Shown here: positions 14,653 through 56,362 of the stretch, in pieces
Layout: each line of letters opens with the position of its first letter
How positions within the stretch are numbered: position 1 is the stretch's first letter
Assembly (NCBI RefSeq): GCF_031326345.1
Contig: NZ_CP133671.1
Span: 3,348,001 to 3,412,000, forward strand
Origin: Aureispira sp. CCB-E
GTDB taxonomy: Bacteria; Bacteroidota; Bacteroidia; Chitinophagales; Saprospiraceae
DNA: 64,000 nucleotides
Reading direction: 5' to 3'
Notes under the pieces: model-generated
The model's database searches: none
The model's input: only the letters and a program-made list of their open reading frames with translations
What the model was told of the DNA's origin: nothing
Program-made: the position numbers and the translations under genes

Positions 14653-15405
14653 ATGATAAAAAATGACTTAGTGCAATTACTTCGTAAATTTGAACCAATT
14701 TCTTTGAAGGAAATGGACCGAGTAAAGCTTATGAATAGGGTGGAGACGAAGTTTTTGTTTGGTTTGGATCAACTCATGGAAATCCTAGAGGAGTTGATGG
14801 ATGATTATCAAGTTGTAAAAATAGATGGAAATATGCTTCCTGCTTATAGAAGCCTGTATTTTGATAATGCTGAATTTTTCTTTTACAACGAGCATCATAG
14901 AGAAAGAACTAGCCGTTATAAAGTGCGATACCGAACTTATGTTGATTCCAATTTATCTTTTTTAGAAGTCAAACACAAATACAAAGGAAGGACCAACAAA
15001 AAAAGGATAAAAGTAGAAGACATGGCACAAGAAATGCCCGAACCTCATCGCAATTTCTTGAAAGAATTAATGGTTCCTAAAGCTGATTTGCAACCCGTAA
15101 TGATGAATACTTACAATCGAATTACGTTGGTTGCTAAACATGCTGTAGAACGGCTTACTTTAGATATTAATCTAAATTTTGAATTTGGAAACAAACAAAA
15201 AGAACTTAAAAATATTGTCATTGCTGAATTGAAACAAGAACGGATTACTAGAGATTCTCCTTTTTATAAAGTAGTTAGAGAAAAAGAAATGCGTCCTTAT
15301 CGAATTAGTAAATATTGTATGGGCATTATACACCTGTATGGGCAAGAAAATATTAAATATAATCGATTTAAAAAGAAACTCCTAAGATTAAATAACTATG
15401 CTTGA
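14653..15405 (+). CDS. VTC-domain protein (polyphosphate polymerase-like)
   Basis: A stand-alone cytoplasmic VTC domain, the fold that in the yeast vacuolar transporter chaperone Vtc4 polymerises polyphosphate from ATP. The tunnel signature is visible: MNRVETKFLF, YRSLYFDN, SRYKVRYRTY and FLEVKHKYKGRTNKKRI, with basic and acidic residues alternating on beta strands, then IAELKQER near the end. Its length of 250 residues is usual for bacterial single-domain members. The stop codon overlaps the DUF4956 start by 8 bp (ATGCTTGA), so the two are translationally coupled. Whether bacterial members make polyphosphate or use another triphosphate substrate cannot be decided here. Confidence 0.85.
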   Translation: MIKNDLVQLLRKFEPISLKEMDRVKLMNRVETKFLFGLDQLMEILEELMDDYQVVKIDGNMLPAYRSLYFDNAEFFFYNEHHRERTSRYKVRYRTYVDSNLSFLEVKHKYKGRTNKKRIKVEDMAQEMPEPHRNFLKELMVPKADLQPVMMNTYNRITLVAKHAVERLTLDINLNFEFGNKQKELKNIVIAELKQERITRDSPFYKVVREKEMRPYRISKYCMGIIHLYGQENIKYNRFKKKLLRLNNYA

Positions 15406-16024
15406 AGTTACCTGGTTTGATGATGATGTGTACAAATTATTGTTGAGAATGCTCATTAATGTAGTCTTTCTTACAATAATTATTCGATTTTTGTATTATC
15501 CAATCACCAAACGAAAAGACTATTTATTTACCTATTATTTGATAGGTTTTATTACTTTTTTCTTGTGTTTTAGTCTCAAAAAATTGGACATCGATACGGG
15601 AATGGGCTTAGGGCTATTTGCTATTTTTGGAATCATTCGCTACCGTACCAATACCATAGAAATTAAAGAAATGACTTATCTCTTTGTGGTCATTGGATTG
15701 AGTGTAATCAATTCGCTGGCATCCAAAAAGGTGTCAATGGTTGAAATTGCCATTATTAATGGAACCATAACTTTTATAACGTTTGCTCTAGAATATTTGT
15801 GGTTATTAAAGCATGAAACGAGAAAGACAATTGTCTATGAAAAAATAAACCTCATCAAGCCTTCTATGGAAGCCGAACTAAAAAAAGATTTGGAAAAACG
15901 GACAGGCTTAAATATTAATCGTTTTGAGATTGGAAAAATTAATTTCTTGAACGATACAGCTCAAATTAGAATTTACTACTTTGCAGACGAGCAAGAACTT
16001 TCGGATTATAATTCTAGAGAGTAG
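15398..16024 (+). CDS. DUF4956 membrane protein coupled to the VTC protein
   Basis: The 208-residue protein has four hydrophobic helices in its first 140 residues (about 15-35, 40-60, 70-90 and 105-140) and a soluble C-terminal domain. The family signature GLGLFAIFGIIRYRTNTIEIKEMTYLF is clear from about residue 68. DUF4956 proteins often sit next to VTC-domain genes, which suggests a membrane partner for the polymerase. Function beyond this association is unknown. A hairpin terminator interrupted by a mobile element follows. Confidence 0.85.
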   Translation: MLEVTWFDDDVYKLLLRMLINVVFLTIIIRFLYYPITKRKDYLFTYYLIGFITFFLCFSLKKLDIDTGMGLGLFAIFGIIRYRTNTIEIKEMTYLFVVIGLSVINSLASKKVSMVEIAIINGTITFITFALEYLWLLKHETRKTIVYEKINLIKPSMEAELKKDLEKRTGLNINRFEIGKINFLNDTAQIRIYYFADEQELSDYNSRE

Positions 16025-16081: not shown

Positions 16082-16257
16082 AAAATGTGCTGCTGTTAAA
16101 TATAGTAGTTCGTTGATTTTTTACTTTTTTAGCTCGGTTTGTTACTCCCTACGGTCGTGAGCTCGCTATGCTCGGTTCGCTCGTGAGATCGCAAGCTTAG
16201 TTACCAAAAAGATAAAAAAGCAACGAACTATTGTAAATAGATACAGCAGCACATTTT
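16082..16257. terminator. Bidirectional terminator hairpin split by a mobile element
   Basis: AAAATGTGCTGCTGT (16082-16096) and its perfect complement ACAGCAGCACATTTT (16243-16257) flank the element. If the element and one TAAATA copy are removed, the arms are separated by only 9 bases (TAAATAGAT), a classic terminator for the two convergent genes on either side. As it stands the loop is 146 bases. Confidence 0.75.
16103..16233. mobile_element. MITE-like element in a terminator loop, target duplication TAAATA
   Basis: TAGTAGTTCGTTGA opens and CAACGAACTATTG closes this 131-bp element. TAAATA occurs directly before (16097-16102) and after (16234-16239). The interior has GC-rich modules (CTCCCTACGGTCGTGAGCTCG and related) and the TTACCAAAAAGATAAAAAA stretch shared with the copy at 1687. 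The empty site can be reconstructed, which makes this one of the clearest insertions in the window. Confidence 0.87.
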
Positions 16258-16287
16258 TATTATAATGATGGCTTCGATAAATACATC

Positions 16288-16851
16288 TTAATGTACGGTT
16301 GATTGGGACAGTAAGCCTAAAAGCTCTGTTTGGATAGACTGCCCTTTATCTTCTTTGTACCAATGCAAGATTTCTCCGTATTTTTCATCCGTAGAAGCAT
16401 CAGATGTTTTTTGTTTCTGTACCAAAGCTTGTGCTTCGGCAGGACGAGGTCCCCAAGTAAACAGATCATTCCCCTCAGCATCTCTAGCGATCAATTTAGG
16501 AATCGATTTTCCTCCATTGGTCAAGTAGTTATCTATTTCACTATCAGAATCTCGCAACTGCACTTCAATATTGATATTAGGATTAAGGGCAGCCATTTTT
16601 TCTATGTAAGGAATTGAATTAGCAGCATCACCACACCAAGGTTCTGTGATTAAAACCCATTTTTGAGGTTGGTTAATCTCCATAATCGCCTCAGCAAGTT
16701 TGGGTTCAATGGTGCCTTGCTTGGTCCAACGTTTCATTCTAGAGTTATTCAATTTTACATAATTGATATAACTTTCTTTATCATAAGGAGCTGCTGTTAT
16801 TTCTCCCATCAAAATTTGGGCAAATAGATCTCTATATTCTTGTACCGTCAT
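16288..16851 (-). CDS. Thioredoxin-fold protein with a single active-site cysteine
   Basis: A 187-residue cytoplasmic protein with a thioredoxin-like domain at about 60-150. The active-site region reads TEPWCGDAANSIPYIEKM, so the first cysteine of the CxxC pair is kept and the second is replaced (WCGDA). The cis-proline segment GKSIPKLIARD is present. Proteins of this WCGDA type are common in Bacteroidota and are annotated thioredoxin family. Without the resolving cysteine it is unlikely to act as a simple disulfide reductase. It is convergent with the DUF4956 gene. Confidence 0.83.
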   Translation of the reverse strand: MTVQEYRDLFAQILMGEITAAPYDKESYINYVKLNNSRMKRWTKQGTIEPKLAEAIMEINQPQKWVLITEPWCGDAANSIPYIEKMAALNPNINIEVQLRDSDSEIDNYLTNGGKSIPKLIARDAEGNDLFTWGPRPAEAQALVQKQKTSDASTDEKYGEILHWYKEDKGQSIQTELLGLLSQSTVH

Positions 16852-44975: not shown

Positions 44976-45028
44976 TAGTAGTTCGTTGATTAGCTGCGCT
45001 GCTACTGCGTGGTTTTAACGAACTATTG
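44976..45028. mobile_element. Short MITE-like element between convergent genes
   Basis: TAGTAGTTCGTTGA on the left and TTTTAACGAACTATTG on the right enclose only the AGCTGCGCTGCTACTGCGTGG module, making this the most compact canonical copy (53 bp). The 6-base flanks are ATTATT and ACTACT, not an exact duplication; an alternative 8-base repeat ATTATTTA at 44970 and 45039 is possible but may be chance. Confidence 0.75.
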
Positions 45029-56268: not shown

Positions 56269-56362
56269 TAGTAGTTCGTTGATTTTTTACTTTTTTAGCT
56301 CGCTACGCTCGTGAGCTTGCAAGCTCGGTTCGCTGCTACTGCGTGGTTTCAACGAACTATTG
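56269..56362. mobile_element. Canonical MITE-like element, target duplication ACTTCG
   Basis: TAGTAGTTCGTTGA at the left and TCAACGAACTATTG at the right, with a perfect 11-bp inverted repeat. ACTTCG precedes (56263-56268) and follows (56363-56368), and TAG comes next on both sides. Interior: AGCTCGCTACGCTCGTGAGC, TTGCAAGC and CGCTGCTACTGCGTGG. At 94 bp this is the best reference copy for searching a genome. Confidence 0.87.

Follow-up and report, generated by a model that had tools for sequence, protein, structure and literature searches.

We believe that a short mobile element in the marine bacterium Aureispira sp. CCB-E, a MITE copy of 131 bp, very probably landed by chance in the 9-nt loop of a bidirectional intrinsic terminator that was already in place. 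The element is a member of a new, non-autonomous, high-copy Aureispira MITE family, and the preference its copies have in common is for a short dyad-symmetric AT-rich target, not for hairpins. The insertion described here is the roughly 1-in-100 event expected by chance. It is tempting to conclude from this one site that the element seeks out terminators, and comparing 100 sibling insertions with a proper background removes that wrong inference. All coordinates refer to the window, the stretch of 64,000 nt that was analysed (NZ_CP133671.1, positions 3,348,001 to 3,412,000 of the forward strand; genome G000), unless they are given as genome positions.

The terminator and its empty site

The element lies between two convergent genes recognized by their open reading frames and protein domains. 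The 5' member of the pair encodes a DUF4956 protein of 208 aa (15398..16024, + strand; PF16316, E 1.7e-53), and the downstream gene encodes a thioredoxin-like protein of 187 aa (16288..16851, - strand; PF14595, E 1.9e-38), so the two genes end at 16024 and 16288. Between them AAAATGTGCTGCTGT (16082..16096, + strand) pairs perfectly over 15 bp with ACAGCAGCACATTTT (16243-16257) across a spacer of 146 nt. An earlier note on this DNA described this perfect repeat as bracketing an element with its TAAATA duplication, and its coordinates are right to the base. Direct reading places the two copies of TAAATA at 16097..16102 and 16234..16239; duplications of 6 bp are found around most other copies of the family too. 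They enclose the MITE copy TAGTAGTTCGTTG...CAACGAACTATTG (16103..16233, + strand), which aligns to the 146-bp consensus of a family of more than 100 copies. Its left TIR, TAGTAGTTCGTTG, occupies 16103..16115 and its right TIR, CAATAGTTCGTTG on the - strand, 16221..16233; both were read directly and confirmed by family comparison. The trinucleotide GAT (16240..16242) is what remains of the ancestral loop on the far side of the element, and the right arm follows with its T-run, ACAGCAGCACATTTTT (16243..16258).

Removing the element and one TAAATA joins the flanks into a 15-bp stem with the 9-nt loop TAAATAGAT, as the earlier note had proposed. The stem of the rebuilt site stands between an A-run and a T-run, the build expected of a bidirectional intrinsic terminator. 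We exclude a chance stem on the following grounds. When the flanks of 100 family copies were re-paired 60 times, none of the resulting sites reached a stem score of 32, and the window site scores 38.

The orthologous junction in G001, a genome of the same genus and the closest relative in which both genes are adjacent, confirms the suggestion that a bidirectional terminator once served both genes. The gene order there is identical and convergent, with the DUF4956 protein 92% and the thioredoxin 78% identical. No element is present between the genes. The intergenic DNA contains an intact hairpin of 14 bp, ATGTGCTAATGTAA-CGT-TTACATTAGCACATTTTTTT, followed by a T-run. The outer 7 bp of the stem are the same as in the window, and the upper stem has changed on both sides yet is still paired. 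Since the empty site has an intact and still-paired bidirectional hairpin, the terminator is older than the insertion. In G003 the two genes are far apart, so that genome is of no use as a junction ortholog. In Aureispira sp. CCB-QB1, the other genome of the window's species, the insertion is also present; its element is identical to the base and the region is unchanged. The insertion is shared with CCB-QB1 and absent from G001, and it is therefore older than the split between CCB-E and CCB-QB1.

The family and its target

The family has ends matching YARTAGTTCGTTG and mostly 6-bp duplications. The TIR pattern YARNAGTTCGTTG has 309 matches in the genome, against 9 for a reversed-pattern control. 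In the 1.0 Mb examined around the listed matches there are 105 end pairs flanked by a duplication, of which 64 have an exact duplication of 6 bp, 17 one of 7 bp, 13 one of 5 bp and 11 one of 6 bp with a single mismatch. The copies share TIRs of 13 bp (TAGTAGTTCGTTG / CAATAGTTCGTTG) and their modal length is 146 bp; at this length there are 21 copies, on average 94% identical to their own consensus. The window copy is a derivative of this consensus. It keeps the first 29 bp, then has a GC-rich insert of 72 nt, GCTCG...CTTAGTTA (16132..16203), in the place that a 34-bp module takes in other copies, and most of the inner part is lost: a residue, CCAAAAAGATAAAAAAG (16204..16220), is left, after which consensus positions 47-133 are absent. 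No ORF of at least 60 aa overlaps it. Short copies without a transposase gene, with TIRs and target duplications, dispersed in large numbers and mostly intergenic, are what one expects of a MITE, a class whose members measure about 50-1000 bp. The family has also moved in the past. The copy at G000:C1:3245496 is missing in CCB-QB1, where the site is uninterrupted and holds a single TSD. Two other positions in CCB-QB1, 2964612 and 3625289, were considered as empty sites and rejected, as both are occupied.

Further copies or ends of the family occur in the window at 1687-1853, 44977-45015, 56269-56362, 21553 and 35168; two are complete with duplications (genome positions 3349687 and 3404269) and the rest are short or degraded. 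The same or similar ends with different interiors are found in G003 and G006, genomes of the genus but not of this species, and perhaps in a Prolixibacteraceae MAG, whose record has several similar ends and could hold a related element. The shared end sequence may thus define a wider group of elements. Lone matches to the TIR pattern in records from Helicobacteraceae, Pacearchaeota and Acetofilamentum are probably fortuitous.

The search for a parent transposase gave no autonomous copy: in the DNA examined around the matches, family ends 0.6-6 kb apart never form a pair with matching duplications. Among transposases the search covered DDE_Tnp_1, and none of the 30 loci examined, out of 42 matches, bears family ends at its own borders. 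The MITE copy at 5799183 merely adjoins a DDE_Tnp_1 IS and is not part of it. A candidate autonomous copy was considered at G000:C1:309118-310318, where 94 bases and then a 1,107-base run of N come after a left end of the family; a run of N begins at the same point in CCB-QB1, and in G000 there is no right end past the run.

The copies do have a target in common. We aligned the 88 sites with 6-bp duplications in the orientation of the element and compared them with intergenic controls. T at -3 is found in 76% of sites and A at +10 in 72% (35% of controls for each), W at -13 in 95% and W at +20 in 93% (70% for each). This pattern is AT-rich, dyad-symmetric around the centre of the duplication, spaced at about one helical turn over a span of about 34 bp, and it is reproduced in each half of the genome. 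The window site matches three of the four positions.

Chance and its rivals

The earlier note took the terminator loop as a sign of a possible targeting rule, a preference for hairpin loops, and this part of it fails. Copies elsewhere that showed no association with inverted repeats were to count against such a rule, and that is how the other copies of the genome behave. The test set was 100 of the 105 end pairs, chosen to be non-overlapping and with good ends. The flanks of each were joined with one duplication, the best stem with a loop overlapping the site was scored, and 20,000 random intergenic positions served as background. The mean stem score is 11.25 at the 100 empty sites and 11.40 at the random positions, so the sites are no better stems than any intergenic DNA. 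A score of at least 24 is reached at 3 of the 100 sites, against 2.2% of random positions, or about 2.4 sites expected after weighting for gene orientation. Under a stricter, terminator-like definition, a hairpin with a T-run, a single site lies inside such a hairpin (3.05 expected), and it is also the only one in a loop (1.07 expected); five lie within 40 bp of one (8.0 expected). A single loop site in 100 puts the 95% upper limit at about 5.6% of insertions, which leaves a modest hairpin preference compatible with the data. Nor do the copies prefer convergent gene pairs. Convergent, divergent and tandem contexts account for 12, 28 and 59 sites against 9, 33 and 58% of intergenic bases, so the 12 of 99 convergent sites are proportional to the intergenic DNA available.

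We therefore argue for chance, in the sense that the target was picked by its local sequence. A DDE-type transposase acting in trans would recognize the dyad-symmetric AT-rich consensus, and the insertion would be tolerated since neither the arms nor the T-runs are disturbed. The enlargement of the loop from 9 to 146 nt, with one hairpin nested in another, was also stated in the earlier note, and the measured spacer and the predicted folds agree with it. The full + strand folds as a hairpin inside a hairpin (-78.7 kcal/mol, z = -7.6) with a small internal loop and with the ends of the element paired, and the - strand folds similarly. By the pairing of its TIRs the element would fold on itself and re-join the arms of the terminator, and a long two-storey hairpin would still end transcription from either side. 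Termination probably survives the insertion, given that the arms are re-joined and the T-runs untouched.

A variant of this account replaces pure chance with tolerance. It keeps the sequence-led insertion and holds that insertions into loops are better tolerated than those into stems, the arms still pairing. The sole terminator site in 100 falls precisely in the loop, and arms and T-runs are retained when the hairpin refolds, as this variant would have it, and just 1 of the 100 copies lies within an ORF, from which it follows that purifying selection shapes where copies persist. However, the terminator case is a single event, and the difference between one site inside and one in the loop and the 3.05 and 1.07 expected is not significant. 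We consider tolerance of this kind possible but doubtful. The natural terminator described here, with 137 bases added to its loop (146 nt versus 9) and an intact orthologous hairpin for comparison, lets the tolerance of loop insertions be tested.

It is unlikely, in our opinion, that the insertion instead killed the terminator, leaving the 15-bp repeat as a relic and the convergent genes reading into each other in antisense overlap. One could argue for this from the size of the new loop, and a scanner for short-loop terminators calls none at the site. On the other hand, the arms are still perfect, the element and the region around it are the same in CCB-QB1, the nested fold is very stable, and a long loop that folds on itself need not block closure of the outer stem. 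That the transposase recognizes hairpins, cruciforms or terminator loops is very improbable: the window copy and the copies at 5726132 and 2988300 do lie in inverted-repeat loops whose stems score 25-38, the latter two AT-rich, but three such sites are what random intergenic DNA gives, only one is terminator-like, there is no enrichment near terminators, and 5726132 and 2988300 match all four positions of the consensus and so need no hairpin to explain them.

GC-rich modules and known systems

The more interesting lead, we believe, is not the insertion into a terminator loop but the strikingly modular interior of the family. The main differences between copies are entire GC-rich modules, 22, 34 and 36 bp long (26 bp is also recorded), which sit at a small set of fixed points, behind consensus bases 14, 26-29, 61, 116, 130 and 138, and several of them are paired symmetrically within the inverted repeats of the element. 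Examples are the copies at G000:C1 positions 582291, 746242, 3625289, 3646260, 4325755 and 6324528, as well as 16132-16203 of the window. Of the 41 copies that CCB-E and CCB-QB1 share, 12 are unlike in entire modules, and at 3625289 and 3646260 the strains differ by modules while the remaining 146 bases are identical. In about 258 kb of G000 aligned with CCB-QB1, a sample centred on MITE copies and so biased to their neighbourhoods, there are 31 indels of at least 15 bp; nearly all are modules or multiples of them, and none falls in a gene. Module indels between the strains also occur outside recognised MITE copies.

Two processes might be at work here. The elements diverge between strains by 1.4-2.8% and their flanks by 0.4-0.7%, a difference that points to gene conversion among copies. 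The cases of 3625289 and 3646260 suggest exact gain or loss of modules, which fits them better than gene conversion. A two-level system is conceivable, though we hold it less likely than not, in which a rarely mobile MITE backbone would carry modules of fixed length that are precisely gained and lost, in copies and in other intergenic DNA alike. Should the modules themselves move or be excised, rather than change by gene conversion, they would form a distinct kind of micro-mobile unit, one product of which would be the 72-nt core of the window copy.

A literature search found nothing on insertion sequences within terminator hairpin loops, and for Aureispira and MITE it returned a taxonomy paper only. 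Bacterial MITEs in general have been reviewed (PMC10969869), and within the Bacteroidota those of Porphyromonas gingivalis, including BrickBuilt, are described (PMC4596501). The new family resembles them in being short and AT-rich, with TIRs and target duplications, no transposase gene and many intergenic copies that vary between strains. It differs from them in its TIRs, its 6-bp duplications, its dyad-symmetric target and its fixed modules of 22, 34 and 36 bp; in P. gingivalis, IS with ends that match some of the MITEs have been reported (PMC4596501). What we add is a new high-copy family in Aureispira whose target preference can be measured.

Of known systems, the group IIC introns, mobile elements found at Rho-independent terminator stem-loops (PMC7923331), come closest to a real precedent for the targeting of terminators. 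The likeness ends at the location. Group IIC introns are catalytic RNAs whose stem-loop lies upstream of the insertion point, whereas the Aureispira element has TIRs and duplications and no association with terminators. They have a group II ribozyme core and a reverse transcriptase beside a terminator stem. We reject an identity with them, as the element is 131 bp long with those TIRs and duplications and Rfam has no match in the window. SPRITE, BOX and RUP of Streptococcus pneumoniae are also small interspersed hairpin repeats, some of them terminator-like and some nested (PMC3049150; PMC10969869). The difference is in who owns the terminator. SPRITE is itself terminator-like, whereas in Aureispira the terminator is that of the host genes, and all the element did was land inside it.
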